NCBI GenBank assembly: GCA_947044365.1
Contig: OX345636.1
Span: 8,142,001 to 8,206,000 of the forward strand
Reading direction: 5' to 3'
Length of the DNA stretch: 64,000 nucleotides
From: Petrosia ficiformis
Lineage: Eukaryota > Porifera > Demospongiae > Haplosclerida > Petrosiidae
The position numbers and the translations under genes were made by a program. Shown here in pieces: positions 2,232-60,076 of this stretch (positions are counted from its first letter, which is position 1; every line of letters starts with the position of its first letter). Below the pieces are notes generated by a model, which was given only the letters and a program-made list of their open reading frames with translations, was not told the DNA's origin and searched no databases.

Positions 2232-2770
2232 ATGAATTATGTTTCATGTACATGTACTTGTACATGTGTTTATACATGTACAGCTATATAAACTTCTGTT
2301 GATGTGTATACAAAGACAAAGAATCTTTTCTTTGCTCCTGGCTATAATTACAGTGGAACACAACTATACTATTGAAAGGTATATTATTGTAACACAATTG
2401 AACAGAACCTGTTAACCATACTAGAAACAAGATGTACTTCTGTACAGGATGATGTAATCAGTATTTACTTATATTTCAACCTTCATTTTGTGGGACATAA
2501 GAAGTCTTCATGTACTACAGGTTGGTGGATATAATGTGCTTGTATTGGACCAAGGTAAATATGAACAAAGGTTGTAATCTTTGTGCATAGGTACTGACCT
2601 TTGAATGTACATTTTCACATTCAAAGAGTATAGCTTTGCTAAATGTGTATACTTTGATTACTACAGTGATAATTATGTTGACCAGTTTACTAAGATAACA
2701 GCATAATTCATATGTTGTAATAATTATTTTCTACACAATTGTTAAGTCTCGATTTGGATATAACAAGTTG
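2232..2770. repeat. Local duplication, unit 2 (partner 432-1105)
   Basis: This is the second copy of the 432-1105 sequence, with scattered substitutions and small gaps. It runs up to the 3' side of the MATH exon at 2819. Confidence 0.75.
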
Positions 2771-2818
2771 TAAAACAGTATGTACTACACTGAGTGTAAT
2801 GTAACACAATTATATTAC

Positions 2819-13627: not shown

Positions 13628-15026
13628 TTATTGATTGATGTGAAGATTAATATTGAAGACACCTCCATGTACAGTTTGAAAGTTGAGTGTTTTCAAGGCA
13701 TCGCTAGGAGGAATGGGTGGCAGACTTTCGATGGGAGGCTTGCATTCTAAAGTCAAATTGGCTTGGTTTTCATCATTTCCCTTTTGTTTGTTTGTAACTG
13801 TGGCTTTACAAGCTGTTTGTATTTGATGAACAGAGGTTCGCTCATATGATCTCAAGCCTTCTTTAGATAAGTGTCCAGAGCGTTCCATGATTACCTTTTC
13901 TGGGTTGGAGGCACTGTTCATCCGGGAAATTGAAGTTGCACGCAGGCTGTGATTTGATTTATTCTCAACATCAATACCAGCTTGTGAACAAATATCCTTC
14001 AATTTTGTGTCAAGTTTGTTGTGGCCTATTGTCATAACAGAATACTATGGGGCAGAATCTTCAATTGGTACTTTTGTTAAAGGCTTGCAATAAAACACAC
14101 TGTTTTCATGAAGACCATCAGGAAGTTTGGAGATATATAATTTGAGAAGAAAAACATGGCAACGATTAGCAACTTCAGGTCTAGCATATTGACAAATTTT
14201 CTTATTTTCAAGGTTTAACTGCTTTCTACCCCCAGGGCGGTTCTTGGATCCATGCTCTACATACTCAACAAATTCCAGCATTTGGTCAGGGCAATCCGGA
14301 TCTGGTTCATAACCAAAATTCAACTGAGCCAGTGTTAAATTGCAATGTTCTCAGCCACTTCTCAAAACAAAGTTCAACCCATTATAATAGAAAACTGCAT
14401 TCAAAAGACCATCTGGGGTTTCTGAATTTAGAACTGTGCTCTCCCATAATTTGTCTTCTTCTTCATTCATTATAATACCTGCTTTTGTTGCTGATGTTTC
14501 TCCTATTCCTTCCTTGTGTAGATTTTCAAGAAGTGCATGAAGAGACTCGAATTCACCATCTGGATTCTGAATTTTGAGTTTATATGGTGAGTTAGTTAGT
14601 GTCAATGTATCGACTCAATCCACACATTATGGACACCAGGCTTCTTGGACAGTATGGATCCTCATTTGATTTACGAACCTCAGAGACAAATGTACACAAC
14701 CAATCACGTACTTCCTTTGCCTCATTTCTCAGTAAAATGTCATTTGGTGGCCCACTTCTGCCAGACTGCTTGCGGGTTTCTAACCAGTCCTCGAAAATAT
14801 TTACAGCCCATTGTGTGACTTTTTCAGTATTTTGCGGAGTGATCTTCTTCTTAAGACTGTCTGTTTCCGATGATGAAGAAACAAAAGAGAAACGCCCATC
14901 TATTTGTTCTTTCTTTCTCTTTTTTAGCGACAAAGACAGCTTCTTTTGTGTGTTTACACGCTTCATGGCCTTCACTCTCTTAGAGTTTCTGTGACTGTGC
15001 ATGCGCATGCGCATGTGCAAAACCAT
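13628..15026 (-). pseudogene. Crypton tyrosine recombinase (KIAA1958/DUF3504-like), broken
   Basis: The reading runs 15026 to 13628. The N-terminal part carries WAVNIFEDWLETRKQSG, followed by a segment with PDPDCPDQMLEF and a C-terminal tyrosine-recombinase core. In that core HSLRAT supplies the His-x-x-Arg, SGHL the second His, and GLRSYERTS the nucleophile Tyr. This is the arrangement of animal Crypton proteins and their domesticated relatives, which cut and rejoin DNA through a phosphotyrosine. Breaks are a frameshift near 14600 (two frames overlap), an in-frame TGA at 14353-14351 and an in-frame TAG at 14047-14045. The frame is otherwise open, so decay is recent. Confidence 0.8.
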
Positions 15027-15041
15027 GACGTCATACCAGTG

Positions 15042-15160
15042 GTGATATATGGCATATATCCCTGCTGTACTCGTGAACGAACTTTGATGGGGTTGTATAA
15101 CTTCCCTGCGGTTGTATAACTGCCCTGTAGTCGGGGATATATGCCATATACATGTATATG
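15042..15160. repeat. Inverted repeat TATATGGCATATATCCC upstream of Crypton
   Basis: TATATGGCATATATCCC near 15045-15062 pairs with GGGATATATGCCATATA near 15137-15155. Direct GTTGTATAACT copies lie in the loop. It could mark an element end or be a chance feature of the Crypton leader. Confidence 0.55.
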
Positions 15161-15344
15161 CCCTGTTGGCTCTTTGATGTTTCTTTTAACTATGGTATAT
15201 ATATGTATAATTATATATATATCTACATAACAAAACCTAAAGAAACCCCATTATTATGATGATTTTGCAGTCTACTTATTTTCCAGCTTGTACATGTATA
15301 ATTATATAGGAAAATGGAAAGCCAAATGAATATATAACTTATTA

Positions 15345-17837: not shown

Positions 17838-19560
17838 TTAGCTATTTATCCTCTTGCATAAACGACGGTTGTGGCCTGCCTGACCACAGTTTCCACAAAT
17901 TCTTTGTCGCTTTGCAGGAGGAAGTGTGGAGGTAGGCAACTGAAACTGTACTCTAGAAGTTGGTGCTACAGATCGAGGTGATGATACAGGGGTTGGTACT
18001 GGTGTTCCTGGTCGTGGTACTGATGGCAAGGGTCCGGTAAGGTCTTTGGCCTTATCGGAACAGTATGGTCGAATTTTGTCGTATAAATACCACTGTCTTT
18101 CTGCTGACATCCCTTGAGGTTCAATAATTGGTGGCATTTCATGTATGGTAGGATTCCATGAATCATCTTTTAATAGAGCTGATTCTATTTCAGTAGAATC
18201 TCTCAAAATTTTGGAAATTATTATTCCTTTTTTGTTGGTAGAAGCAGTAAAATGGTGGTATTTAGTAATATTACTTATCTTTTTAAGATGTGTTGCAAAG
18301 AATGTTACCCAGTTGTAAGTGGGAACAATGACCTGCCCATTATGAGTACCCACAAGCTGGGCATGATTGACAGCTGCTGACTGTTCAACAACATTGACAA
18401 TGTCATCTAAACATTCCACACGAGTTTTCCTGAATCGTTGTTTAAATAGACCGAAACAAGAGTCTGGAGTAAATTTCGTATGGCCTGGTATCATGAATGA
18501 TAAGGTAATAGATTTATTTAAGCCTACAAGGACTCTCCATAGTAGATACTGTTGAATAAAGCAACAAGTAATTAAGTTAATTAATGTATTGTAAAGGTAA
18601 AATTTTGCCATACCTGAATGACTGTGTTGTTCTTATTCTGACCTATGCAATTGTCAGCATGCATGGCCAGTTTCTGTTCTCCAACCCCATAGATGGAAAG
18701 AAAGTGGTGGAGTAGGCTGGTTACTGTGTTCGACCCTTTTCCGGTGTCTACTTGTTCGTCAATGAGGTAATTAATCTTAGTGTGATAATGTAAAAGTAAA
18801 TTATTGTTTGTTTAGATTTTGTTAGGTTTACCTGTTTGGGTATTCCTTCACAGCATACCCCGAATATGCCACACTTTCGAGGTGTAAGAAAATATATGGG
18901 ACCAGGTTGCATTGGATCACTAGGGAAATGCACTTGTTGTGCATAGTCGAAACTCAGATGGAGAGTCATGTCAAGAGAGGAGGTAGGTGTTTCATTTAGT
19001 AGTGGTGGTTGTTTGTATGTGCCATCTGGCAAACAATAAAATTTTTTCAGGTCCTCTTTGCTCATTTGACATTGCAATTTGTAAAATTGCCGTTCATATT
19101 TCGCCCTTTCTATATGTAGTTTAGCTTGCTCAAGAACCTATTTTTTTTGTTGATAAAATGAGTAATTTTATGTACCTGTTGTTTAACATCCTCTGATGCA
19201 TTATTTGCGTCAGTTATAACTCTGGAATTCTGTTGACATACCCAGCACAAATCTGACTGTGGCTTGGTGATTATAATTTGAGGTACATACTTCTTCCAGA
19301 GGGAACAGAAAGTTGTGTATGCTGCAAGACGTCTGTCGGACTGTTCATTAGCTTTAGTGTATTGAGTCCATACTAATTTTTTGGTCATGTTTGTTGGTAA
19401 GAGTTGTAAATCCATCCTTTTGTAACCAGGAATTCTTTCATGGAGCACACTGCATTTAATTTGTCCTACGAAGTGCTTAGAGACTTTCGAGTCCCAGTAA
19501 GCAAGTGGGTAGAAGAACACATGTAGTACTCCATATCGGAAAAAGAGCCAAGTTTGGGAT
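17838..19560 (-). CDS. Spliced transposon-type gene, DNCxGQNKNN family (DUF7869-like)
   Basis: Four minus-strand exons join with GT-AG introns of 38-65 nt: about 19560-19176, 19137-18832, 18775-18614 and 18548-17838 (stop TAA at 17840-17838). The order is a YGVLHVFFYPLAY-like start, a CWVCQQNS motif, YLIDEQVDTGKG, HADNCIGQNKNNTVIQ, LLWRVLVGLNKSITLSF, PGHTKFTPD and a terminal zinc knuckle CGNCGQAGHNRRLC. The D-N-C-x-G-Q-N-K-N-N and G-H-T-K-F blocks define a large invertebrate family of presumed RNase H-fold transposon proteins; that activity is inferred. The first exon boundary is uncertain. Exons are open and splice sites clean, so it may be a recently active gene. A related element fragment sits at 46376-46560. 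Confidence 0.65.
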
Positions 19561-31700: not shown

Positions 31701-31771
31701 TCATGTTACTACAAAGGGTCTATATGTATACATGTATGTAATGTTATATAATATACAATATGTTTTATTAC

Positions 31772-32287
31772 CTGTATGTATGATAACTTTAGACACTCTG
31801 AAACATAGTGTGTCGTTATGAAGGTATTCTGTGTTGTTATAAGCATTATACTCTAACTCCTTGTGAGGAACGACTCGAGGTTTAACCCCTGAACCTGGTG
31901 CTGTCTCTCCATCTGTTACTCTTGTACGAGCTGCTATTGGTGTATTGTAGTGGTCAACGATCGTTTCCACATGTGCCTTATCCTCCCTCCAGTTTAGCAA
32001 TTGAATAGTAATCTCACTATTCAATGGCCAGTTCAAAGTCTCATCATACTCCCCCTTCATGAGACGTACACCTACACTTAGGTGTGTATCTTTTCCAGAA
32101 GCTAACCCGTTGGCGTCAACACGTAGTTGTAATTTATATCCATTTGTTGTAGAGTAAAAAGGTACACTACACCACTGGTCACCAACTCTCTTGTGTTCAT
32201 TGTAGTTGAACATTGTGATTGTACATGGAGGGAGGAGGTGTGTGGACTGAGTCTCAGGAGGGATATACCAGGTTGGTATATCAGTAC
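31772..32287 (-). CDS. MATH-domain exon, phase 1-1 cassette
   Basis: The exon is 516 nt, the same length as the MATH exon at 41445-40930, entered and left in phase 1 (acceptor ATAG, donor GTAATA). It reads IPTWYIPPET, EHKRVGDQW, PFYSTTNGYKLQLRVDANG, RLMKGEYDETLNWPL, TIQLLNWREDKAHVE and HNDTLCFRVSKVIIH. This is a complete TRAF-type MATH fold, the usual receptor-tail binding module. It is closest to the exon at 28052-27535, including the LLPPCTITM linker, so the two arose from a local duplication. No upstream RING exon of its own is visible. Confidence 0.8.
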
Positions 32288-32289
32288 CT

Positions 32290-33034
32290 ATGATAATAAA
32301 TATAATAGTTAATATATGAAATTAGTTATAATATCTTCATGAGGTATAGTAACTATACTATTATTAGTAATGTGTAAATATATTTGAAGAGTATATCATG
32401 AAAAGAAGTGGTCACAATATAACTGATCAGGAATGTATAATTATAATAATTATGTGAGTGTTGTATATAATAGATATGTTTAATATACTATACTTTTATG
32501 TATAGTTTAATAACTAGCATAACAATAATTATTAATATACTAGTTAATTACAATTATAGTATGTGGATATTGTATGTAATTGTTATATCATACACGGACC
32601 TCTGGTCTCCACATGTTATATATTGTTACAGTATCAATATATTCCATGGGTACATGTGGAGGTATACTATAACTGTTTTGTACATGTAGCATGGAAATGA
32701 AGTGGAAATGTTATTCCTTTCCAGTAGTTATGGAATGGTTTATGGATTCACTCCTTATCTTGTAAATAGACCTGTTAATTGTAGAATGTCATCTTTCTGT
32801 CAACATTTATCATGTGTCACTCACTACAAGTGCTTATGAAACATGATATTGGTGGCCTCTTGATAATGGGTGTATAATTGGGATTTAAAATGTGTTGTTA
32901 TTAATATCAGGTGTTATTAATTGTTTCACATACATCATGTATGTGTTCTTTAGGATTCAATTACATGTACACAGTGTAACATGTAAAATCAGGTTCATGT
33001 TTCATGTATATATCCTGACAGGGGTACGGTTATA
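32290..33034. other. No gene seen
   Basis: AT-rich, short frames only. Confidence 0.5.
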
Positions 33035-40538: not shown

Positions 40539-40929
40539 TATAGATTCACTGAATCATTTGGACCTAGGAAGAGTAGGGCTGGCATTTCAACATGATTAAT
40601 GATTTCCTTTTATATACTTCTTCACTCATCCAGTATCATTGTGGTTAACTTCCTAATGATATGATATTCATGTGACACACCATGACTAATGTACTATCCA
40701 TGATGACTAGTTAAGTATTTTGGGGTAAGTATTTGTTCTAAATCATAAGACTGGTTTTAACATCCAGTGACATCCAACTAATTTTATATTTTCTCACTCC
40801 ACCTTAATACCACAAAAGAAGGAATACTAAAAATGGAATGGACGTAATTAATATACGTATTGTTATTCCTGTGTATACATACATATTCTATACTAAATGT
40901 ATTAATACATGATAAATAATAATAAGTAC

Positions 40930-43900
40930 CTGTAGGTATGGAAACATTTCCAATTAGGAAACAGAGAGTATCACTGCTAATATATTCTGTGTTGTTACTA
41001 GGATTATAATATAGTTCACTGTGGGGGATGAAATTGAAATAACCAAAACCAAGAGCTCTCTCTCCTTCAATCACTTTAGAACAACTCTTTAAAGGAGTGT
41101 TATCATTGAACGGTATAATCTTCTTTACATGTTCGTTATCCTCTCTCCAATTGAGGAGATGAATCGAGATGTCTCCAGTAAAGGGCCATTTCAATTGGTT
41201 ATCGTTTGTTCCTTTCATGAGGCATACAACCACTGACACATGTGTGCCTTTACCTTTACCATACCCATTTGCAACAATAGCTAATAGCATCTTGTAGCCA
41301 TTATATGATGAATAGAATGGTGCACTATAATACTCAGCATTAAGTTTCTTGTAGTCAGTAAAATTTGTTACATTTACTATGAATGGTGGAATAGAAGGAG
41401 ATGACTTTGTAATTAGAGCAGAATACCACATAGGAACTGTAGGGCCTGTGAAATATAATAATAATAATTATTAATCTATGTGTAGTATAATTTCATGTGT
41501 TATAATATTTGAACTACGTTATGTGATTATTTTGAAATTTAAAATCATGAATATAATTAACTGTACTTGTGTTATTAGATAAGAGTTAAATAGTAATCAT
41601 TAAAATATCAATTATATGTGACTATGAATAAGAAAATTAGTCTCTTGAGAAATAAAATTAATTTTGCTTTTAAAACACATAACTTAGAGGGCTACATGGT
41701 TCGGAGTGCATTCCTAGTATTACGAAGCACTCTAAAATTTTGTAATGTGTGTCAGGGATAAGCCCATGTAAATAGCTTAAAATGTTGAGGGATGTTTGGC
41801 CAACCTTTGCCCTAAATACCAAGTACAGGAGGAATTTTAAAGTTGGGTGTCTCCCCGTTAATGGAGGCTAGGAGGGGATTCAGCCTCTCACCACCCACGC
41901 AATTTGGAAGTACAGAGACCACACCTATGCAATTGGGTGGGTAGCTACATTTCCCTTGCTGTAAAATCTGAAATCGTGTGGGTGTAGCTGGTGCCAACAT
42001 GTAGTGGGGTAATTTTGTTTGCCGAAATATATGCAGCAGAGACGCCAGTGTTTGGAAATGGGAAGAATTTTGAAAAACAATCTCAGTCCTCTAAGGGTTA
42101 AATGTTCACTATTCAGTCAGGAATATCAAATGATATTTGATATTCACTTTATGATTATAAATTAATTATCTTCATGTATAAAATAACTGAATAATGAACA
42201 TTTAAATATATTAAGTATTTGACAAATTATTATTTCCAAAGCGACTCATTTTCTCATCCACATACATGTAGTCATCATAATATAATTATGTGTTATAATA
42301 ATATAATTATGAATTGATTAGTAACAGTATACTCCTCATTATATATACTATATATAAGATGATTGATATTTACATGTAATTAAGAGACAAACTGAATGTA
42401 TTGTAATCTCATCACATGTAAGATAATATAATTATACTAATACAGGTCATTACTTCATATAAGGATAGTATTGTAGATATATTGCATATTCAAAATAGTA
42501 TAATACATGTACATGTACTTATACAAACCACACAATACAATAATGTAATGCTTGAATGATAACATCCTGATATAACCCTATAACAATGTCCATACTACTA
42601 ATATACATGTACTTCTTATATCATATGAGACTATATAAATATAACATTATTTCATGACTTCTTATATGAAGTCTTATTAATTGTAATTATTAATAAGACC
42701 ACTAGCCTCATACCTGGGGATGATACAATTATGTACATACACTACTGTATTATTTCATGACTTACATGTATTATATGAAGCCTTATTGCCGAGCACCTTA
42801 GTGCGATGCAACTAATACGGTAGTGTAGTGAAATTTCAACCTTAGTTTGTATATATATATATATATGTGTGGTTCTGTCACGCTTAGGAATGCAATAATT
42901 AAACATACGACCACAGGCACGTTAATACATAGAGCGCGCATACTGTTGATGGTGTACTGCTCTAAAGTAGAGACGAGTGAGGAACCTACCATTAAGGAAC
43001 CTACAGCATGCCTTCGACACCTAGATACACTGAGAAAAAGGATGCAAAGACGGGGAGCTACAGAAGAGGCCAAGACAGAGGAGAAATTAAGAGGTAGAGA
43101 ACAGAAACAGCGAGATCTAGATGAGAGTGAACAAGAAGCAAGAGCATCCCATGTATGTTAGCATTATCGCAAGGATCACAAGATGACAAATCACTAAATT
43201 CTCTCTTCTTTCCTCCCATTATAAGTGTCAAAGACAAATAATTATACCATTGTGTGACTAAAACCTTTCTGGATATTAATTGACTACAGTTTAGTGCGAG
43301 CGAGGCAGTCCTGTGCATACGTATTCCTAGTTAATTGTAATTATTAATAAGACCACTATCCTCATACCTGGGGATGAGACAATTATGTACATACACTACT
43401 GTATAGTAAAGCCTGGTTCACAATATGATTCAAGGCCTTGTGTTTCTTTGCGTTGTGTCAGTGCTTTATATTTTTAAGATGACACGTTTCTTTTAAAACC
43501 GTCAGACACAACCTAACTAACACAAGATAGGATCTGATTCTATTTTATATTTATTTGTATACATTACATGTATAATTTAATACCTTCCAAGAAAGTTATG
43601 TACCAAAAACAATCTTCATTGTTTTTATGACAATATATAGGCAACTTTCAGTTAGGTTAACAACTCTCATGATTTTATTGATCAAGTCATGTAGCTACTC
43701 AAATACAAGTTATAAATAATTATGAGCTTAGTTTGAATTATGTGATTAAAAGTAGGAGTGTGCTTAAAAATCAGTAAATACATATATACAATACCTTTCA
43801 TTTGTGATAACTGTTGTTTCAACTGTAAGATCATGTGAGTATTTTGTAAGCTGGTGGTTTGTAGTTGTAGTTGAAATTTCTCATGATCTCTGGTTAGTTT

Positions 43901-44897
43901 CTCATCTAACTTCCTCATTTCTGTGCTCTCTTCTTCCGTCTGCTGTTGTAGCCTCTCTGCACTTTCTTGTAGCATTTTAAGCTCCTTCATCATTTCATCA
44001 CTGCCTTCCTTGAACTCATTTAGCATTTCTTTTTGTTTAGCTTCGTATTTCTGCTCAAATGTTTCCAGATATTGTAATACTTCTTCACATTCTACCTCTG
44101 TAGCATCTTCTAGTAACATCACCAGTTCATTTGGGACTGTCAGGACTATTTCCTTCTTGTGTGCTTCAAGCTGCTCTTGTATCAATTCAATTTCCTTCTC
44201 TAGTACAGTGATTTCTCTTGATGTCGTCATATCCTGTTCTTCCATTCTTGTCTCGTCTCCATGTTTCTCTTCCTGTTCTTTGGAGGTATCCATTTCCGGT
44301 AAATATACACAATCATTAGTAAGGTGTTTCTCTTGATCATCCAGCTCTCCCACCCATTCACACCCTTTCTCAACATTTGTACAACGGATCTGCAATTTGG
44401 AAAGTAGACGATGTTGTTTTCTATCGAAGATATTAGTATACTCCTCTGTATTACAAGAAGGACAGGACTGTTTGTTGGCTCTAGTATGTTCTATACACAC
44501 CTGGAAATATCAAAAGTATTAGTATCACTGGTTTAGTAAGTTAAAAGCTGGGAATCGTAATGGTTAACCCACAATATAACATAATATGAAGATACTCTAA
44601 AAATGTGTTTCATGTAAATAATAATTATATACTCTACAAAAACTTTACATTTTGTGTATAATATTTTGTAATGTTGCATGCCAAATTACTGGTGTGATAT
44701 AGGAATTGGTCAGATTGCTTCAAAATACTCACCTGACAAATACGAGTTCCACAACACAATAATACATGTGGTTCTCTAACTACTAACAGACACACTGGAC
44801 AATGAGGTGATTCTGGAGGAAGATCAAGAAATAGTTGATCTTCATATCCACCAGTAGGTAGTGATTCATGAACAGTGATATTAGAAATAGCCATCAT
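40930..44897 (-). CDS. TRAF-like RING/zf-TRAF/coiled-coil/MATH protein, copy 2
   Basis: Exons 44897-44733 (ATG at 44897, 55 codons), 44500-43795 and 41445-40930 join in the same phases as copy 1. The protein has a RING-like finger (C33 to C71), a TRAF zinc finger (C95 to C119), a coiled coil about 29 codons longer than in copy 1, and a MATH domain (YYSAPFYSSYNGYKMLLAI, CLMKGTNDNQLKWPF, IHLLNWREDNEHVK). The first exon differs from copy 1 at only three residues, while exons 2 and 3 are much more diverged. The zinc-ligand His of the RING is Thr here too. The MATH exon ends in a phase-1 donor (GTACTT); it could join a short terminal exon or the MATH exons at 32287 and 28052. The 2.35 kb second intron carries transposon debris. 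Confidence 0.87.
41685..42100. mobile_element. Non-autonomous derivative of the DUF7869-like transposon
   Basis: The left end AACTTAGAGGGCT and right end CTCAGTCCTCTAAGGGTT form imperfect inverted ends. The last 90 bp match 19575-19665. It lies in the second intron of TRAF-like copy 2 and has no coding capacity. Confidence 0.55.
42677..43409. repeat. Direct repeat flanking inserted transposon debris
   Basis: TAATTATTAATAAGACCACT and CTCATACCTGGGGATGA occur at about 42677-42752 and again at 43332-43409. The 580 bp between hold the Helitron-like fragment, so the debris came in with, or caused, a local duplication. Confidence 0.7.
42940..43161 (+). pseudogene. Small Helitron-like N-terminal fragment
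   Basis: The frame reads LRHLDTLRKRMQRRGATEE, RGREQKQRDLDESEQEARA and a stop at 43159-43161. The arginine/glutamate/glutamine repeat style resembles the 16.8-17.2 kb remnant. It is short and isolated in an intron on the opposite strand to the host gene. Confidence 0.35.
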
Positions 44898-49050: not shown

Positions 49051-49399
49051 ATTATTGACATGTAATAATTAACCACTGCAACTATAGCTACAGTGGAACA
49101 ACTTTATTATATCAATATTACCAGTCCATTACTATACAAGTGAATGGACATGCCACACCAAACTAATTATATCATAGATATTACTTTTACTACCTGATAT
49201 CTTCTGTTTCAATTGAAATATCCAGTTAATAGATTAGTTCATTCAGATTTCTTCTACTGTTCATGTCAGTCATTCTATCATGATATCTGATGACTTATAG
49301 TGGACACTACTGTTGTCTTTCTTGCAATCGTTCAAACACTTTTTTGTGTCTGCTCAAGATCTCTCGTTTGCTCTCAAATTAGTGTTTCTACTGATACTA

Positions 49400-49733
49400 G
49401 AGTAAGCCACCAATTGTTGGACATATCTATTTTCGGACAGTCATATCACGCAAACGCAAAAACATACAGCTGTCATTCTTGGACCACTGGAAGAGTTACT
49501 GTGCAGCTATGTGTGTACCAAAAATCACCTGCAAAAGGTGATGTATGCAAGCTGTGCAGAGGCAAATCCTGCACCGTCCGAATTAAGCAAACATCGGATA
49601 GATAAATCAAAAGACGGACTGTATGTTGTAAACGTTAAGACAAAGGCATATGAATCATCTATTCCCTGTATGAAGTAGAACAACTCATCTTCTAATAAAT
49701 CTCCAAGACTTGTCTTCTGCCACTCCTTTATTG
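49400..49733 (+). repeat. Left terminal inverted repeat of the outer element
   Basis: Pairs with 59745-60074; similarity is strongest over the outer 50 bp and around CCGTCCGAAT (near 49574) and AAGCAAAC.TCGGATA, and weakens inward. Frames over this stretch on both strands are shadows of the TIR. Confidence 0.85.
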
Positions 49734-50549
49734 TCGTCATCAATGACTATCATAAAATTGCTGTAATTTCGAAAGTGCGCATGCTCAATGATTGGCCACA
49801 TTATACTGCAGGACAGCAGGAGTTGTTCCAGGAAGTTCTTTTCAGCATTGAACCTCACTAACCTGCACTCTTGGATCTAAGTTTTTATCAACTTTGTCTT
49901 ATATTGTAAGACAAATAGAAGATATGTCAGTAAGTCACTAGTTGGGCAAAGTGTATGTGTTAAAGTACAGATACATGTATATGTGTTTGAAACACTGATG
50001 CACTAAACTCTACCAAAAGAAGGGAGTAGGGCTATTTTTATGGTAATGGCATTTTGACATTTCAGATTCCATTTGAAAAAATATTTGTAAACATACAATA
50101 ACCCCAGAATTGGACCCAAATACAAACATTTACGTATTAAATTATAATTTTTGTTTGGGAATGTTATGGTCTATTTGCCTGGTTATGTATCTGTGCATGT
50201 ATACGACGTGTCCCTCAATTCTAGGGTGTAGACATTTCGTAGGTTCACAAATCATTACTATAGCCTGGCCCAATGGCATTGTGGGTTCACTTCTGGATAC
50301 ATTTTATTATATTTATAATTTAGCAAATGTGTACAAGTATCACTAGCTAAAAAGCCAAAGCAATACTAATGTAAAAGTAGGCAGCAGTGTGGTTATTAAT
50401 TACCTTTTGGCTGTATGTGGTTTAACTACTTGATGGTTATTTCGACACTCCAGTTGGTATAATAATATATGATGACTGACTGGAGATGATCTATTTTATA
50501 TTATATATTGAAATAATTGTATAATTATTATATCTTTTACTTCATTTAG

Positions 50550-52362
50550 ATCACTGATTATCCCATCTTGAGTGAAAGGATTATAGTATCACAATTATGT
50601 GATCGATTGGATGACTTTTCCATCACAAATTCTCACAGACCCAAATGCTATCACACTTATGAAGATATAAACATGGTGAAAGCTATGACTGCAGTGGAAA
50701 ATGGAATGTCACTGCGACGGGCTGCCGAAATGTTTGGTGTACCAAAATCAAGTCTTCATGACCGGACATCTGGGAAAATCCAACATGGAGCCAGACCTGG
50801 ACCACCTTCATATTTAACATTGGAACAAGAAGGGGAGCTGGTGAACTTTTTGATTCGTTGTGCCGGTATTGGATACCCACATACAGTTGCACAAGTAATT
50901 GCATTAATACAGCTAATTGTTGATCAGAAGGGTATAAAACGCTCTGTAACTCATGGCTGGTGGCAGAGATTTTGTGAACGCCACAAGGAAATATCACTAC
51001 GTACTGCAGTACCACTAGCAATTGCTAGAGCAAAGGCAACAAATCATGAAACAATTGGGAGATATTTTGATATGTTGGAAGATACTTTAAAGGAAAATGG
51101 TATTTTTAATAATCCTATGCGTATCTACAATTGTGATGAAACTGGGATGCCATTGAACCCAAAGGGTGTCAAAGTGGTTGCGAAAACAGGCTGTAAGAAT
51201 GTAAGCTCTATCTCTGGTGACACCAAGACACAGATTACTGTGCTAGCTTGTACATGTGCTACTGGTATTGCTTTACCACCACTAGTCATCTTTGATAGGA
51301 AAACCTTAAACCCCGAGATGACAGTTGGAGAAATACCTGGAACCCTTTACGGACTGTCAAAAACAGGCTGGATTAACAGAGAGTTATTTTTCCAGTGGTT
51401 TTATCGTCATTTCCTTGTGTACTGTCCTCCAATAAGACCTTTACTTTTACTAATGGATAGGCATTCTAGTCATTACTGTCCAGATGTTATTACAGCAGCA
51501 GCTCAAGAAAAGGTAATTCTTTTCACATTACCTCCTCACACAACACATCTTGCTCAACCATTGGATGTAGGCTGTTTCAGTCCATTAAAGTCCTGTTGGA
51601 AGCAGGTTTGCCACAATTTTTATAAACGTAATCCAGGAAGAGTAGTTTCACGATACGATTTTTCACATCTATTTAGTGAAGCTTGGATGTTAGCAATGTC
51701 TCAAAAAAATATTAGAGCTGGATTTAGTGCAACAGGTGTATATCCTTTCAACCCCAGAAAGGTCCAAGATCAAATATGCAAAGAAAACCCTTCTGCATTT
51801 CACCCCGAATCACTGCCACACCGTACAGGACTGGCATACATTCCTTTGTACAGTCCAGTATGTGATAAACGTTCAAAATATTCACCATATTACGAGCAAT
51901 CTACTACCACATTATCAGATGTAAATGCCTCATTTAAATCATTCTATGATTATAATAATGAACTGGAACCCTCCACAGCAATATCTCCATCCAATAGGTC
52001 ATTATCATTAGGAGATATCAATCATTTCAATGAAGATTCTTTGACTATCATGCCACTTAGAAAAGCCTCTTCAATCAGCCAGTTTTTGAGCACTCCAAAG
52101 CCTCTACCAATGAAGTGCCAGAAGACTGCAGGAAAGGTACTCACTAGCATTGAAAATATTGAAGCTATTAAAGAAAAAGAAAGAATAAAGCAAGAGAAAA
52201 TAGACGAGAAAGAAAAACGAAAAGTAGCTAGAGCGAAGGCTAAGGAAGCCAAAGCATCAGCTAAACAGCAAAGAACCTGTAGAGGTGTGTCAGTGTGTGG
52301 TCCTGAAACTAGTGACAGTGGTCTAGAAAATGAAGACAATGAAGTGAAAAACAAAACAGGAA
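50550..52362 (+). CDS. pogo/jerky-type transposase (psq HTH plus DDD), open
   Basis: The exon starts after TTTAG at 50549 and stays open to a phase-1 donor GTAAGT at 52363. Counting from the TTG codon at 50568, residues about 31-70 form a psq-type helix-turn-helix (NMVKAMTAVENGMSLRRAA), followed by a Tc5-like DNA-binding region with WWQRFCERH. The DDE_1 core has Asp190 (YNCDETGMP), Asp297 (LLLMDRHSSH) and Asp333 (AQPLDVGCF), a D-D-35-D spacing. The tail is a lysine/glutamate-rich helix. The first in-frame ATG (50673) falls inside the HTH, so an upstream exon probably supplies the start. The enzyme would cut at TIR ends and insert at TA. No stops or frameshifts: recently active. Confidence 0.9.
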
Positions 52363-52419
52363 GTAAGTTATTTTGTTATTTCTGGATATATATGTACATG
52401 AATGTTTGGCATACTATAG

Positions 52420-53010
52420 GTAAGAAGCAGGTAACGCGTAAAACTAGAGGTGTGTGTGATGAAGACAGTTTAGTGGAAACAAAAACAGGAAGTAAGTTAT
52501 TTTGTTATTTCTGGATATAATATGTACATGAATGTTTGGTATACTATAGGTAAGAAGCAGGTAACTCGTAAAACTAGAGGTGTGTGTGATGAAGACAGTT
52601 TAGTGGAAATGAAAACAGGAAGTAAGTTATTTTGTTATTTCTGGATATAATATGTACATGAATGTTTGGCATACTATAGGTAAGAAGCAGGTAACTCGTA
52701 AAACTAGAGGTGTGTGTGATGAAGACAGTTTAGTGGAAATGAAAACAGGAAGTAAGTTATTTTGTTATTTCTGGATATAATATGTACATGAATGTTTGGC
52801 ATACTATAGGTAAGAAGCAGATAACTCGTAAAACTGGAGGTGTGTGTGATGAAGACAGTTTAGTGGAAATGAAAACAAGAAGTAAGTTATTTTGTTATTT
52901 CTGGATATATATGTACATGAATGTTTGGCATACTATAGGTAAGAAGCAGATAACTCGTAAAACTGGAGGTGTGTGTGATGAAGACAGTTTAGTGGAAATG
53001 AAAACAGGAA
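52420..53010 (+). CDS. Outer micro-exon array, five 72-nt phase 1-1 exons
   Basis: Exons lie at 52420-52491, 52550-52621, 52680-52751, 52810-52881 and 52939-53010, in a 130-bp (last spacing 129-bp) tandem unit with 58-nt introns (acceptor ACTATAG, donor GTAAGT). Each adds 24 residues of the form KKQVTRKTRGVCDEDSLVE, and the joined codon gives KTGSKKQ. The transposase exon ends in phase 1 and each array exon begins and ends in phase 1, so any number can be included without a frameshift. The array resumes at 58264 beyond the nested element. Confidence 0.8.
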
Positions 53011-53592
53011 GTAAGTTATTTTGTTATTTCTGGATATAGAGTAACGGACCATATATCAGACGACTCAATTTTCGGACATCTATATTGAACAAACGACATG
53101 TGCTCTGGAGCTAGTTCTTCACCAGCTGGTAGTCCTATATCTACACTATTTGCGTACCAAAAAGTAGCTTGCAATCTTTGACCAAATAAAAGTTATAGCT
53201 CGATAAAAGACATTGTCCGAATACTGCGGTTTTCATACAGTTGAACCAGTTTTCGGACTAGGTCTGGAAAAAGCTGAGAATGAAGCGAAAATGAACAAAA
53301 CTTATGATTTTAGTATACCTATGTTCTCTCTTTCAAACCTCCAATTCTAAGCTCTGGGTCGCTTGTATGATGCAAATAGCGAGCAGTGACGGATTTGCAT
53401 CACATGATCAATAATCGGATGCACGTGATCAAACGAAGGCACATGCTTGGTTCAGTAAGAGCTGAAAGGTATGTTTTTGTTGGTATGCACATCTAATTTG
53501 AGTTCTTTTAACATATATAAACCATTATATAAGCCTAATATGTGTTATGCAACAGCTAGCATAGTATCGGTGGTATGAAATCGTTTTATGAC

Positions 53593-53595
<3 letters not shown>

Positions 53596-53637
<42 letters not shown>

Positions 53638-53694
53638 TATATATATATGTATATATATATAATATATATATGATATATATATAATATATATATA

Positions 53695-53737
<43 letters not shown>

Positions 53738-53742
53738 TATAG
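53596..53742. repeat. (TA)n microsatellite inside the nested element
   Basis: Imperfect TA array just upstream of the inner micro-exon array. Confidence 0.85.
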
Positions 53743-53792
53743 AAGCAAGAAAGGTGTTTACATAATCTTTTATTGTGTTTTACTAAATACAG

Positions 53793-55127
53793 TGTTAGTT
53801 GAATCTGAAGGCGAGTTGGAGGTGTGTCTTCCTCCAAGACAAACCACTAGAAACAAGAAGAAAGGTGTATACATAATTATAAAATAATAATGACTTTTAT
53901 TGTATTTTACTAAATGCAGTGTTAGTTGAATCTGAAGGCGAGTTGGAGGTGTGTCTTCCTCCAAGACAAACCACTAGAAACAAGAAGAAAGGTGTATACA
54001 TAATTATAAAATAATAATGACTTTTATTGTATTTTACTAAATGCAGTGTTAGTTGAATCTGAAGGCGAGTTGGAGGTGTGTCTTCCTCCAAGACAAACCA
54101 CTAGAAACAAGAAGAAAGGTGTATACATAATTATAAAATAATAATGACTTTTATTGTATTTTACTAAATGCAGTGTTAGTTGAATCTGAAGGCGAGTTGG
54201 AGGTGTGTCTTCCTCCAAGACAAACCACTAGAAACAAGAAGAAAGGTGAATACATATAATTATAAATAATAATGACTTTTATTGTGTTTCACTAAATGCA
54301 GTGTTAGTTGAATCTGAAGGCGAGTTGGAGGTGTGTCTTCCTCCAAGACAAACTGCTAGAAACAAGAAGAAAGGTGTATACATAATTATAAAATGATAAT
54401 GTCTTTTATTGTAAATGCAGTGTTAGTTGAATCTGAAGGCGAGTTGGAGGTGTGTCTTCCTCCAAGACAAACCGCTAGAAACAAGAAAGGTGTATACATA
54501 ATTATAAAGTAATAATGACTTTTATTGTGTTTTACTAAATGCAGTGTTAGTTGAATCTAAAGGCGAGTTGGAGGTGTGTCTTCCTCCAAGACAAACCGTT
54601 AGAAGCAAGAAAGGTGTATACATGCATGTAATTATAAAGTAATAACGACTTTTATTGTGTTTTACTAAATGCAGTGTTAGTTGAATCTGAAGGCGAGTTG
54701 GAGGTGTGTCTTCCTCCAAGACGAACCGCTAGAAGCAAGAATGGTGTGTACATAATTATAAAATAATAATGACTTTTATTGTACGTGATTTACTAAATGC
54801 AGTGTTAGTTGAATCTGAAGGCGAGTTGGAGGTGTGTCTTCCTCCAAGACAAACCACTAGAAACAAGAAGAAAGGTGTATACATAATTATAAATAATAAT
54901 GACTTTTATTGTGTTTTACTAAATGTAGTGCTAGTTGAATCTGAAGGCGAGTTGGAGGTGTGTCTTCCTGCAAGACAAACCACTAGAAACAAGAAGAAAG
55001 GTGTATACGTAATTATAAAATAATGATGACTTTTATTGTGTTTTACTAAATGTAGTGTTAGTTGAATCTGAAGGGGAGTTGGAGGTGTGTCTTCCTCTGA
55101 GACACACTGCTAAAAGCAGGAAGAAAG
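53793..55127 (+). CDS. Inner micro-exon array, 11 phase 1-1 exons
   Basis: Exons of 72 nt (three of 69) start at 53793, 53920, 54047, 54174, 54302, 54421, 54545, 54675, 54803, 54929 and 55056, in a unit of about 127 bp with introns of roughly 51-62 nt (acceptor GCAG or GTAG, donor GTGTAT in most). Each encodes VLVESEGELEVCLPPRQTT followed by a basic RNKKK tail. A twelfth, decayed copy follows near 55180. All exons are multiples of three in phase 1. The reverse frame is also open, a shadow of the repeat. No start codon exon is seen between the TIR and the array. Confidence 0.8.
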
Positions 55128-55281
55128 GTTGGTGCATTGTACATACTGAAAAATAGAATGAGTTTTATTGTGTTTTACATTGTTAGTTGAAACAGTACAA
55201 TTTGAAGGTGAGTTAAACATAATTACTTTTTTTTTTATCATTAAAATTGAAGATTCATTAATTCACTAATGTTTCGTTTAG

Positions 55282-57690
55282 ATCCTTATCATTGTGATGA
55301 ATTGTGGATAAAGAATCTGAATTTGTTTAAATCTGATAAAAAGTGTCTTGAAAGTGATGCTGATGTTTCAGACAAAGTGATAAATGCTGCTCAGGCACTT
55401 TTACATCTTCAGTTTCCACATGTGTCTGGGTTTCAAAACACACTGCTGGGTGAAAAACTTAAATTTTCATCGATATCTAATTTCCCTATTCTTCAAATAA
55501 TTCACACAGGTATGATTAATGCTATATTTTACATCATAGGAATTTTTGTGCAAGAGGGAGAAAGTGTGGCTAATTAATTAAATCATACCATATATCTTTA
55601 TGTAGCCATCACTGTATCATATACATTGTTTTCAGTTGAACAGTATGTGTACACATACTTACACATAATTACTCTTTCGCCAGTTGCGGCTCATTGATAT
55701 CCAAGTGATACCAACAACTTCGAAAAAATCTAGATAACACTGTTTTACAAGTAAATTAATAATGACTCAATTTGACTAGTTGGCCTACCATACTCACAAG
55801 AAAACCTTTGCTGAAAATGGCACATGGGTATATGAAATGAGTAGTATAATATGTGTACTGTAATTTCTAATTTAACAAAAACATTTTATTAATTTAGAGA
55901 GTAGTCAATTATGCTAACATTAATTTTGGTTATTAAAATTAATAGTTAATCAATTAAGTGCACAGTTTGATTTTGTAACTCCGTTATAATCAGAGAGTAC
56001 GGTAGTACTCTCTATGTAGGGATGGCACGGAAAAAAAATGGCCGCCCATGCATTTCAATTGCAAGTGATGAGCTGAAATCTGTGGTAATATATACACATA
56101 AGTTTCTATACACACATGCCTGTTTATATCTAGTGTTTTTATGACTACCAATACCTTCTAGATGGCCGAAGATTATTGTTAAGGTAGAGAACCAGCGAGT
56201 GGCAAAACTGGCAAAATCTTCATCATATTATTTTCCAGACAAATCATTTTTTTGTTTGTTGACCTATCACGATGATTCTAGCACCATTCCCGTCGCATTT
56301 ATAGTAAAATTCTGGTCGTAAAGTATCGAGATGATATCTTCAGATACTATGAAAGAAGACAGTCTCAACGACTACAAAGATTTGATCTGGAATTGGACGC
56401 CATTTTCCTAAGTGGAATTTAATTACGCATGCGCATTTGTATACTCTTTTAAAACATGGAAGCTGAAAAGGTGGAAGTGTTTGGCATTGTAATAACATTT
56501 GTGAGTTTGTGAGCAAATACTAATAATGAATATAATAATTATTAATATTAAAGCAATTGTATAATAATATTGTATACTATGATAAGCATTGGAATACTGA
56601 ATGGTTGACACAGTGACTGACACTACTTCTTGTAGGACTGCAGACAGTGATGTAAGTGAATAGAGAATATACATCATCTGTAAGTGAAAGAGAATGATAA
56701 TCAATACATAAACAAAAGACTGACCTTCATTGATGAACAAATTTTAATGCATTTTTGATTGCATGATTTCATAATGATATATAGTATTTCTGCAATCTAC
56801 AAAAAAACATTCACATCGTTTAGAAAAAAATCAATGAAAACAAGAATAATAAAAAACATTTTCAATAAAAATGAAAGAAGATGTAGGGATGTCAAAACCC
56901 AAAAAGCAAGCAAACAAGGTTGGGAAGCTAACTTAGAACCCAAAATTAAACAAACCACTTCCATATAACCCTACATAATTACAGCTCTTTGTACAGAGGT
57001 GTAAGCACTTATGTAGGGTTATATGGAAGTGGTTTGTTTAATTTTGGGTCCTAAGTTAGCTTCCCAACCTTGTTTGCTTGCTTTTTGGGTTTTGACATCC
57101 CTACATCTTCTTTCATTTTTATTGAAAATGTTTTTTATTATTCTTGTTATAATTATGTTGCAGGATCTAATCATTGGATTTGTACAAGTAGCCAAAAATC
57201 TGGAGTTGTCCAAGTAGTAGACAGTTTACAGCTGTACCTACCACTAAACCAGTTTACCATCCTTCAAATTGCTCAAATTTATTCTATTCCTTCTGATTCT
57301 GATATTTTGGAAATTCAGACACTATCAGTTCAACAGCAAGAAGGAAATAAAGATTGTGGTCTATTTTCAATTGCCACAGCTTTCGAAATTTGTAATGGTA
57401 GCAATCCTGAGCAGGCACACTTTGATCAATGGAAGATGCGAGCTCACCTTATTGAATGTTTTAATGAAGGAAAACTTACTTCTTTTCCAAGAATATCAGC
57501 AGAACCTTTACCTCGACCGATGAGAAAGCTTCGCAGAATAAAAATCTTCTGCTGCTGTAGGATGCCAGAAAATTATGATGAATTAATGATATTATGTGAT
57601 TTGTGTAAGAAGTGGTTTCACTGTTGTTGTGTCAACATTAATGCAGACCAGATTCCTGATGTCTGGAGGTGTGACAGCTGTGATTCATGA
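55282..57690 (+). CDS. Inner Ulp1/SENP-type cysteine protease with PHD finger
   Basis: Exon 55282-55509 (phase 1-1) and exon 57164-57690 (TGA) join across a 1.65 kb intron. The N-terminal part has DPYHCDELW, VSDKVINAAQALL and LQIIHTG. After the junction come SNHWICTS (catalytic His), VVDSLQ (Asp) and EGNKDCGLFSIATA (Cys). The C-terminus is a PHD finger with CCCRMPE, CDLCKKWFHCCC and WRCDSC, all zinc ligands present. Ulp1-type enzymes cleave ubiquitin-like proteins or polyproteins; PHD fingers read histone tails. The exons immediately upstream are the micro-exons, in the same phase, so the mature protein probably has a repetitive N-terminal tail. A 138-bp inverted repeat fills the end of the intron. 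Confidence 0.85.
56840..57147. repeat. 138-bp near-perfect inverted repeat, 32-nt spacer
   Basis: Arms 56840-56977 and 57010-57147 are reverse complements with about one mismatch. The right arm ends 16 nt before the second protease exon, so the left arm is an inverted duplicate of the intron end. Frames mirrored in both arms are artefacts. Confidence 0.92.
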
Positions 57691-58263
57691 TTAAAAATAA
57701 TATTTGAGTTGACAATTTTTTTCAGTTATATAATTATATATACTTTGATTTATTAAACTGGCATTGTGGTTCCTGAACACTCACCTATATATAACTGCAC
57801 TATAGTAATATCTGAGCTCTTGGCATTCGACTTGTCCCTTTGACGCGCATCCGATTATTGATCACGTAATGCATGATCAACAACTGCTCGCTATTTGCAT
57901 CATATAAGAGACCCAGAGCTTACACTTGGAGGTTTGAAAGAGAGAACATAGGTATACTGAAATCGTAAGTTTTGTTCATTTTCGCTTCATTCTCAGCTTT
58001 TTCCAGACCTAGTCCGAAAACTGGTTCAACTGTATGAAAACCGCAGTATTCGGACAATGTCTTTTATCGAGCTATAACTAAAATTTATTTCAAAGATTGC
58101 AAGCTACTTTTTGGTACGCAAATAGCGTAGATATAGGACTACCAGCTGGTGAAGAACTAGCTCCAGAGCACTTGTCGTTTGTTCGATATAGATGTCCGAA
58201 AATTGAGTCGTCTGATATATGGTCCGTTACTCTATATGTACATGAATGTTTGGCATAATATAG

Positions 58264-58609
58264 GTAAGAAGCAGATAACTCGTAAAACTAGAGGTGTGTG
58301 TGATGAAGACAGTTTAGTGGAAATGAAAACAGGAAGTAAGTTATTTTGTTATTTCTGGATATAATATGTACATGAATGTTTGGCATACTATAGGTAAGAA
58401 GCAGGTAACTCGTAAAACTGGAGGTGTGTGTGAAGACAGTTTAGTGGAAATGAAAACAGGAAGTAAGTTATTTTGTTATTTCTGGATATATATGTACATG
58501 AATGTTTGGCATACTATAGGTAAGAAGCAGATAACTCGTAAAACTAGTGTCTCTGATGAGGGCAGTTTAGTCAAACGTCTCTCTGAGAAAGACAAGAGAG
58601 TAGCAAGAA
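58264..58609 (+). CDS. Outer micro-exon array, continuation (three exons)
   Basis: Exons lie at 58264-58335 (72 nt), 58394-58462 (69 nt, one codon lost near GVCEDS) and 58520-58609 (90 nt, diverged: SVSDEGSLVKRLSEKDKR then VARS). All stay in phase 1 with the same ATAG acceptors and GTAAGT donors as 52420-53010. The last exon resembles the KEKRKVARAK tail of the transposase exon, which hints that the repeat arose from the transposase C-terminus. Confidence 0.75.
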
Positions 58610-58640
58610 GTAAGTAGTCATGAATGGCAAGTATGTATAG

Positions 58641-59637
58641 GTAGTATTATAATACATATACTATACAGTGCTGACGAGGATCATCTTGATGTTGATGGAG
58701 CAGTTTTAGCCAATATGTCACTACTATTGAATGGGGAAGAACTAACATGTACATTTATTATTCGTTATCAACTGTTACTGAGAGATCAGTTTGCCATTGG
58801 TGGGTTGGAAGATCCAGCATATGGTAAAGAGTATAATTTTTCCACTCAGAGGGGACGTTTTGTGCAGATTCTTCATGTGAATGGTAATCATTGGATCACT
58901 GTGTCTAATATTAATTGCAGATCAGGTATTACTAATTTGTTATATATCTGTATTTATTGTATAGGGTTGGAATGTGTATTTTACCTACACAATACTATAA
59001 CAATAGCATTAAAAAGCATTAGAAAATGATATCTGATTACTAGTGTGTGCTATGATTTTATATGGTGGTGTGAATTATAAGTTTACGTTTCCATGTACAA
59101 TGTATATATACAAATTATTTACTTACAGGTGTACAAATCTTTGACAGTATAAGTGATGAAAATATAAGTGACGACACAATATGTCAAATTTGTAGTATTG
59201 TACGGACACCGAGAAGAAGTATCAAGATTGAACTTATTAATGTTTGCAAACAGAGCGGAATTAAAGATTGTGGATTATATGCAATGGCATATGCAACCAC
59301 ATTATGTGATGGTGAAATGCCTCGCACGAAAGACTACATTCAAAGTGAATTGAGAAACCATCTGTACAATTGTTTACAAAGATCAACAGCATTACCTTTT
59401 CCATCAGTGCATCGCCATTTGGAACCTGGTCAGGTTGTAAAGAAGAAAATACCTGTTGTTGTTCATTGCAGTTGTCGTCTACCAGAAACTCCAACCATTA
59501 GAATGATAGAATGTACTAACTGTGATGTTTGGTTTCACGAAATGTGTGAAGTAATTAATCCCAAAGCATGGGATGATGAATCATATGCTTGGTTATGCAG
59601 TAAAGTTACAGAAAAAGAAAAGAACAATTGTAGTTAA
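58641..59637 (+). CDS. Outer Ulp1/SENP-type cysteine protease with PHD finger
   Basis: Two exons, about 58641-58925 and 59129-59637 (TAA), join in phase 1. Exon 1 reads ADEDHLDVDGAVLA, LRDQFAIGGLEDPAYG and GRFVQILHVNGNHWIT (catalytic His). Exon 2 gives VQIFDSIS (Asp), GIKDCGLYAMAYA (Cys), an LRNHLYNCLQ helix and a PHD-like finger (CSCRLPE, CTNCDVWFHEMC, YAWLCSK). The last PHD cysteine is Lys, so the finger may be impaired. The exon 1 start is unsure: the acceptor at 58640 gives the right phase but leaves only a 31-nt intron after 58609. The inner gene is a diverged paralogue. Confidence 0.8.
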
Positions 59638-59744
59638 AGAAATTCATGTAAAGAGTTTGAGTTATATACAACTGTATAATAATTATTTCATAATGGGCGT
59701 GGCCGAATATACCGCCTATTGTCTGCGGTAACTCGTTACAATGG

Positions 59745-60074
59745 AATCAAAATCCTAGAAGACAAGGCTTGGACATTGTTTAGAGAATAACTGACACTAC
59801 TTCATACATGCAACAAATAATCTATTTGCTTCTCTTTTAAGGTTTACAGGAGCGGATCCGTCTTTTGATATCTTTATCCGACGTTTGCTTGATTCGGACG
59901 GTCAGGATTTGTGGCCGTAAAGTCTACGTATTTCATCATCAGCAGCTCGTTTTTGGTATGCACACAGCTAAGGTTCAAATCTTACTGTGATCCAAAAATG
60001 AGAGCTCTGGGTGCTTGCATTTGCATAATTTGAATGTCCGAAATTAGATATGTCCAACAATCGGTGGCTTACTC
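59745..60074 (-). repeat. Right terminal inverted repeat of the outer element
   Basis: Inverted counterpart of 49400-49733; ends GTGGCTTACTC then TA. Confidence 0.85.
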
Positions 60075-60076
60075 TA

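Follow-up and report, generated by a model that had tools for sequence, protein, structure and literature searches.

A pogo-type transposon lineage of the sponge Petrosia ficiformis with a Ulp1-like protease and a PHD finger downstream of the transposase

A transposase with a Ulp1 protease domain plus a PHD finger has been described in Ginger1-9_HM of Hydra, and in the same work a role in transposition, via the ubiquitin and SUMO pathways, was proposed for Ulp1 and OTU domains (both in the Ginger1 sections of PMC2836005). Elements of the pogo superfamily, in the general description given in PMC7386202, are 1.2-5.2 kb long and have one or two transposase open reading frames (ORFs), with only helix-turn-helix (HTH) domains beside the DDE core. 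Here we analysed a 64,000-nt stretch of the Petrosia ficiformis genome (G000:C1:8142001-8206000; the window hereafter, with positions counted from its first letter), in which a pogo-type element at 49400-60074 carries a Ulp1-like protease and a PHD finger on the strand of its transposase; searches covered the 191 Mb assembly (29 contigs). The results support the view that Ulp1-PHD has been conserved in this pogo lineage and inherited together with its transposase, and our favoured reading, which we hold to be reasonably probable, is that a tail for chromatin targeting and desumoylation has been fused to a transposase of the pogo clade.

Structure of the locus

The outer element is bounded by terminal inverted repeats (TIRs), as confirmed in the sequence: GAGTAAGCCACC begins at 49400, its reverse ends at 60074, and TA adjoins both. 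The sequence-only reading of this DNA had proposed TA-flanked long TIRs here, and these proved real (~320 nt, 74% identical to each other). It had also treated the locus as a single element; the outer TIR-bounded element stands, but a nested second element with its own Ulp1-PHD had been overlooked, and 49400-60074 contains two pogo elements and two Ulp1-PHD sets, as follows.

49400-49718 (+): outer 5' TIR, with TA at 49398-49399
50550-52362 (+): outer transposase exon (HTH_psq, weak Tc5-type HTH, DDE_1 with DD35D spacing, K/E-rich tail), phase-1 donor after 52362
52420-53010 (+): outer tandem in-frame exon units, five of 72 nt, introns of 57-58 nt
53039-58232 (+): nested second pogo element, TA-flanked, in an intron of the outer gene, this copy without transposase
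53039-53426 (+): nested 5' TIR
53793-55127 (+): nested tandem exon units, eleven, of 69 or 72 nt
55282-55509 (+): nested first Ulp1 exon
57164-57690 (+): nested second Ulp1 exon (His, Asp, Gln, Cys) plus PHD finger
57843-58232 (-): nested 3' TIR
58264-58609 (+): last three outer tandem units (72, 69 and 90 nt)
58710-58925 (+): outer first Ulp1 exon (His), weak acceptor; a donor after 58613 with an acceptor at 58669 is also open
59129-59637 (+): outer second Ulp1 exon (Asp, Gln, Cys) plus PHD finger, whose last Cys is absent here
59757-60074 (-): outer 3' TIR, with TA at 60075-60076

In the window, a related element without a transposase has inserted itself into an intron of the outer gene, between two of the outer tandem exon units. 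The nested TIR pair (arms of 148 and 204 nt that are 96-98% identical; ~390 nt at 94% overall) is better preserved than the outer pair, and the nested and outer Ulp1-PHD sets are ~33% identical. L039, a relative of the nested element on another contig, has broken transposase pieces upstream of its array, which have no counterpart in the nested copy. We also note a small element-like inverted repeat at 56833-57154, in an intron of the nested gene (146 nt arms, 98%, 30 nt spacer); a stretch resembling it is found at L022 and L033.

According to Pfam, the transposase ORF (50550-52376) matches DDE_1 (4.3e-21) and HTH_psq (8.1e-9, over the cut-off), and the Tc5 HTH is under the cut-off in the window (0.011) and over it in L040. 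The Pfam lists contain no integrase family; the core is DDE_1/psq, so the Gypsy-integrase-like core of Ginger1 is absent. The catalytic triad is D-D-D with DD35D spacing, among the pogo spacings given in PMC7386202, and the outer element has in common with pogo elements this DDE_1 spacing, the psq/Tc5 HTH, the TA target site and the TIRs. The earlier description of an intact psq-HTH/DDD transposase holds for HTH_psq, DDE_1 and D-D-D, and only the word intact is too strong, given that Arg follows the second catalytic Asp in the window copy, at a place where Gly stands in four of the seven sister copies (the motif was found in those four only). A same-strand protease with a PHD finger had been read correctly as well (His-Asp-Gln-Cys and the finger are present), except that the outer finger lacks its last Cys, which is kept in all five sister copies with that tail read (in L015 a stop codon directly follows it). 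Translations suggest a one-base frame difference behind the missing Cys. Because of the Arg after Asp, the lost Cys and the 5.2 kb insertion in an intron, the window copy of the outer element is probably not fully functional.

Between transposase and protease lies an array of short exon units, spliced in phase 1, that leads into Ulp1-PHD. All 42 units of the outer family are multiples of three (69, 72, 90 and 93 nt) with introns (n=34) of 57, 58, 62 or 182 nt, and the nested-family arrays comprise 11 and 5 units, each 69 or 72 nt; no units were obtained from L014 and L018. Units inside one copy are duplicates, and the 42 units are not 42 independent events; the telling frame-keeping fact is that unit lengths differ by 3, 18 or 21 nt only. 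At the end of the transposase ORF, a donor of the sought pattern was found in 12 of 24 rows, in phase 1 in all 12 (L029 and L032 have an additional phase-0 match upstream), and two of the 12 rows without a donor (L014, L022) were scanned only partway. Arrays with a period of 98-206 nt between transposase and Ulp1/PHD were seen at 15 of the 16 other loci scanned, with none in L033. A transposase tail that leads into many short repeats, as in exon arrays, is also seen in the related proteins P0106 and P0014.

The spliced outer model gives an open reading over 1042 residues, and the reading frames and splice phases speak for a single spliced fusion gene over two separate ones. In the anatomy that we hold with high confidence, one gene joins a psq/Tc5-DDD core to a Ulp1/SENP-like protease by way of a variable-length linker of tandemly duplicated symmetric exons, and a PHD finger forms the C-terminus. 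The spliced model has two weak points: a start exon of the outer transposase was not identified in the window, and the first Ulp1 acceptor at 58710 keeps the frame but is poor (the alternative at 58669 is better-looking, yet requires a weaker donor). The element could instead make two proteins, with intron retention ending the transposase and Ulp1-PHD made independently. In L020, L021 and L026 a stop closes the transposase frame shortly after it enters the first intron, therefore unspliced transcripts of these copies would yield transposase alone, and both L011 and the nested element retain Ulp1-PHD without a transposase; set against this, frame-keeping units link the parts, the Amphimedon predictions (see below) are fused and L040 has transposase and PHD in one ORF, and we regard the two-protein arrangement as unlikely.

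Co-occurrence, phylogeny and selection

The 12-mer at the TIR ends has 29 genome matches (15 forward, 14 reverse) compared with 4 for the reversed control, which argues that it is not there by chance, and it forms eight convergent pairs genome-wide, seven on C1 and the eighth at C10:2657933/2663496. Transposase and Ulp1-PHD are both inside six of the eight pairs (the window, L009, L012 with L013, L014, L015 and L016; L014 lacks the first Ulp1 exon), so that a consistent lack of the protease in other copies, which had been named beforehand as evidence against the association, is not what was found. Of the other two pairs, L011 has only Ulp1-PHD and L010 (the 310-bp pair at C1:3595362) has neither. 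L010 itself (G000:C1:3595362-3595671) is a 310-bp miniature bearing the TIR ends of the outer element.

Genome-wide, 88 transposase matches merge into 73 loci (the transposase and Ulp1-PHD scans scored best candidates only), and a Ulp1-PHD match was counted when it lay at most 9 kb downstream of the transposase and on its strand. This was so at 14 of the 16 same-family loci, which supports Ulp1-PHD as a part of this pogo lineage, at 16 of the 53 loci of 43-61% identity (plus one Ulp1-only) and at none of the four loci of 31-36% identity. About 0.2 downstream cases are expected by chance, and one upstream and one opposite-strand case were observed; chance proximity of transposase and Ulp1-PHD is ruled out by these counts. 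They took in 102 of 150 Ulp1-PHD rows (82 mostly reaching the PHD side, 20 Ulp1-only) and are a lower bound because one separate list, rows that were weak and any second piece of a locus did not enter.

Among 20 diverged loci, which were picked by transposase score and partly for an already-known nearby Ulp1-PHD match, and which include near-copies (L019, L020, L021 and L026; L029 and L032), nine have Ulp1 and PHD, ten have a PHD finger alone and L037 has neither. The PHD-only finger stands directly before the 3' TIR in all seven loci with an enclosing TIR pair; L030, L034 and L035 yielded no such pair, and 6 kb separate the L035 finger from a shortened transposase. Nine Ulp1-less fingers were submitted to Pfam (L027 was left out), with six over the cut-off and three under. 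A PHD profile drawn from these fingers and related ones gave plus-strand matches in 29 of 33 stretches (30 matches; no plus-strand match in L010, L013, L018 and L037) versus one weak minus-strand match (0.021); the plus-strand matches are partly circular, but the strand contrast is not. Even in the far clade, PHD-coding sequence was found at the 3' end of all four distant transposase loci: L040 has transposase and PHD in a single uninterrupted 655-aa ORF, in L041/L044 and L043 the PHD is in the frame of the transposase tail but past a stop codon, and in L042 the finger is interrupted by a frame change. Judged from these sequences, the PHD finger is more widespread in this pogo clade than Ulp1. 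In the alignment, Ulp1-linked fingers are of C-x-C type with Met and Ulp1-less ones of C-x2-C or C-x4-C type with Trp; the two types need not be directly homologous. Ulp1 and the finger beside it seem to move together as one cassette, because finger type tracks Ulp1 even in L025, which lies outside the main Ulp1 clade and likewise has a C-x-C finger next to its Ulp1.

The nearest named proteins are from Amphimedon queenslandica, the sole organism named among the best 120 of 806 transposase matches. Isoforms X14-X18 of LOC109581489 (1117-1244 aa) have psq, DDE_1, repeats, Ulp1 and PHD predicted in one protein, and repeat number differs between X18 (P0141) and X15 (P0144), the two isoforms read; such isoform models usually rest on RNA reads. 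A structure model of the 1117 aa fusion is weak (mean predicted local distance difference test score, pLDDT, of 49.3, with the Ulp1 part unmodelled at about 30-45), and because it is poor only its transposase and PHD matches were considered; the transposase part matches Mos1 and Sleeping Beauty. Another Amphimedon protein, P0060 (961 aa), combines a pogo transposase with Kelch repeats in one prediction, possibly an accessory fusion or an annotation artefact.

These results bear on the explanation that the Ulp1-PHD exons are a separate transposon or a host gene inside a plain pogo element. Independent insertion, which the sequence-only reading had itself raised, is true of one set in the window, the nested one at 53039-58232, which came with the TIRs of a related element. 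The outer set, by comparison, is co-inherited: its family keeps its own Ulp1-PHD with the transposase in those six TIR pairs, diverged families show the co-occurrence too, Amphimedon has fusion gene models and the exon phases match. A separately inserted protease as the source of the outer set is ruled out by the TIR-pair and genome-wide co-occurrence and the Amphimedon models, and we consider the explanation as a whole extremely improbable.

In the transposase tree, which covered in-genome and database relatives, 12 of the 13 Ulp1-bearing rows, including Amphimedon P0141 (and counting P0018, classed as Ulp1-bearing by eye), fall in one clade with support 100/100; L019, L027 and L039 occupy under half of the alignment columns. 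Because Ulp1-bearing L025 is outside this clade and Ulp1-less L027 inside it, three changes are required, against a shuffled mean of 7.8 (0 of 500 shuffles as low). P0141 is sister to L039, of the nested element's family (support 97/96), and the fusion therefore predates the split of the two hosts, unless horizontal transfer took place. Since a Ulp1-PHD tree on its own lacks resolution, identities were correlated instead, and those of transposase and Ulp1-PHD agree over nine rows (Mantel r 0.78, p 2e-4; without L025 0.74, p 6e-4).

The ratio of nonsynonymous to synonymous rates (dN/dS) of Ulp1-PHD between the window and L012, L014 and L016 is 0.12, 0.09 and 0.09 (11-12 synonymous changes versus 5-6 others; Fisher p 4e-6 to 4e-5), and that of the transposase is 0.14, 0.18 and 0.25, all these comparisons having the window branch in common. 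Compared with L012 and L016, the first Ulp1 exon has 4 synonymous changes and 2 of other kinds. At about 0.1, the Ulp1-PHD ratio shows purifying selection between subfamilies. Values are higher elsewhere: for Ulp1-PHD they are 0.48 and 0.60 for the close copies L009 and L015 against the window and 0.53-0.80 among L019, L020, L021 and L026, on few differences, which matches the decay expected after insertion; the transposase gives 0.94 and 0.66 for L009 and L015, likewise on very few differences, and Ulp1-PHD gives 0.37 between the nested copy and L039. If PHD and Ulp1 were passengers without a role in transposition, the near-neutral change in L009 and L015 and the many families without Ulp1 would fit, but the significant synonymous excess between subfamilies would not, nor would the catalytic and zinc residues, which are conserved among relatives only 32-61% identical to the nested copy; we hold this to be very unlikely.

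Protease, PHD finger and a candidate mechanism

The His, Asp, Gln and Cys of the protease are conserved, in an order that we take to be that of SENP and Ulp1. At E up to 0.1, PF02902 (Peptidase_C48) matches 10 of the 15 aligned sequences (best 4.7e-4; L025 scores 16.6 bits, the curated cut-off being 20.7), and it was not listed by Pfam for the Ulp1 exons of the window at E up to 1; among PDB sequences the Ulp1 part had no relevant match. When the second Ulp1 exon of the nested element was modelled (pLDDT 84), its best structural alignment was with SENP5, followed mostly by other clan CE enzymes (SENP1, Ulp1, bacterial deubiquitinases). A SENP-like fold of the protease part is thus supported by the model but not settled, and SUMO as the predicted substrate is likely but not certain because of the alignments to bacterial deubiquitinases.

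The PHD fingers of the window score 24.4 and 24.9 bits for PF00628 (cut-off 24), and the Cys4-His-Cys3 ligands are complete in the nested copy and L009. The nearest PDB sequences are PHF2, PHF8 and BPTF, and many of the structure matches were solved with peptides methylated at lysine 4 of histone H3 (H3K4). Met and Trp are invariant in all 15 sequences and Phe or Tyr precedes the first Cys in 14 of the 15; these positions presumably form the aromatic/Met/Trp cage that reads trimethylated H3K4 (H3K4me3), as in PHF2 and PHF8. Ulp1-less fingers differ from Ulp1-linked ones in this respect. The PHD finger of RAG2, considered again below, reads H3K4me3.

The favoured reading, a transposase with a chromatin-targeting and desumoylating tail, has as its basis the co-occurrence within TIRs in several families, the exon phases and lengths, the purifying selection, the Amphimedon prediction and the PHF2-like PHD finger. 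The mechanism that we propose for it is tentative, its chances being somewhat short of even. The transposase would bind the TIRs via its psq/Tc5 domains and then cut, the PHD finger would tether the complex to H3K4-methylated (open) chromatin, and the protease would take SUMO, or a modifier akin to it, off the transposase or off silencing or repair proteins close by, with the outcome that copies land and persist in expressible chromatin. The target of the protease might instead be the polyprotein of the element itself and not SUMO conjugates of the host, as the enzyme is predicted in cis with the transposase through a long repetitive linker; Ulp1-less families retain transposase and PHD without any protease, and we consider self-processing distinctly unlikely.

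A broader and more doubtful idea is that the lineage swaps chromatin modules at the C-terminus of its transposase, with an old transposase-PHD fusion in which a PHF2-like Ulp1-plus-PHD cassette replaced or joined the older finger in some families, and with the symmetric exons as a hinge that varies in length and could be tuned by splicing (transposase alone would come from unspliced transcripts, and a desumoylating, H3K4me3-seeking transposase from spliced ones). If true, such a lineage would be a self-contained device for open-chromatin targeting and resistance to SUMO-dependent silencing.

Other ORFs of the window, all on the minus strand where a strand is given, include one with a QRICH1 domain at 14592-15185 (-) (Pfam 1.5e-8), which, from a link with QRICH1 that we assume, is possibly a Crypton-type recombinase remnant, and one with DUF7869 (1e-9) and by eye a zinc-knuckle-like tail at 17838-18632 (-), probably another transposon protein. 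MATH-domain ORFs lie at 2742-3341 and 31701-32321 (-), with one similar by eye at 40784-41467 (-), and the ORFs at 4481-5182 and 43682-44509 are mutually alike by eye, with only weak Pfam matches under the cut-off; these are perhaps a cluster of TRAF-like genes.

Relation to known transposons

A predicted histone reader and a SUMO-protease-like enzyme are thus placed on the transposase of a superfamily described as simple. A transposase with Ulp1 plus PHD is a known kind of thing, because Ginger1-9_HM carries both; its pairing with pogo and exon arrays was not found in print. In the open-licence literature (Repbase Reports and most subscription papers lie outside this scope) we found no report of pogo elements with Ulp1 or PHD, and none of exon arrays combined with pogo. 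As Ulp1 and PHD are also found in Ginger1, unrelated transposases may have gained the same chromatin kit, and through this shared kit it can be tested directly what SUMO and H3K4 methylation do in the targeting of transposons, with the PHD-alone and Ulp1-plus-PHD families of one genome as a natural comparison. The in-frame mini-exon arrays are an unusual route to a linker.

According to the Ginger1 sections of PMC2836005, Ginger1 resembles the lineage described here in its C-terminal Ulp1 and PHD, its transposase gene with introns and its early-branching animal host, and differs in its Gypsy-integrase-like core, which here is DDE_1 with a psq HTH; TA target sites, long TIRs and tandem in-frame exon arrays are on this side of the comparison. 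Mutator-like elements (MULEs) with Ulp1 domains likewise carry a transposon-borne Ulp1-like protease, on an unrelated transposase, and exon arrays are not described for them in the passages on MULEs in PMC2836005.

With the pogo superfamily (Fot/Fot-like, Passer, Tigger), as characterised in the overview parts of PMC7386202, our elements share the TA target site (that of most families), the D-D-D core with DD35D spacing and the TIRs, and they have psq and Tc5 HTH domains as in Fot/Fot-like pogo. That account mentions no Ulp1 or PHD, whereas here there is a PHD finger and, in a subset, Ulp1. Compared with the 1.2-5.2 kb given there, the window element is 10.7 kb long (~5.5 kb without the nested element) and the other TIR-bounded copies are 4.3 to 8.4 kb, with L011, L014 and L028 inside the published range; TIRs across copies measure ~310-490 nt. 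In RAG1-RAG2, a Transib-derived pair, a DDE recombinase is likewise partnered with a PHD finger protein; RAG2, in the relevant parts of PMC4411706, is a separate Kelch-PHD protein, whereas here the PHD finger and the transposase form one fusion in L040, and elsewhere their fusion is predicted.

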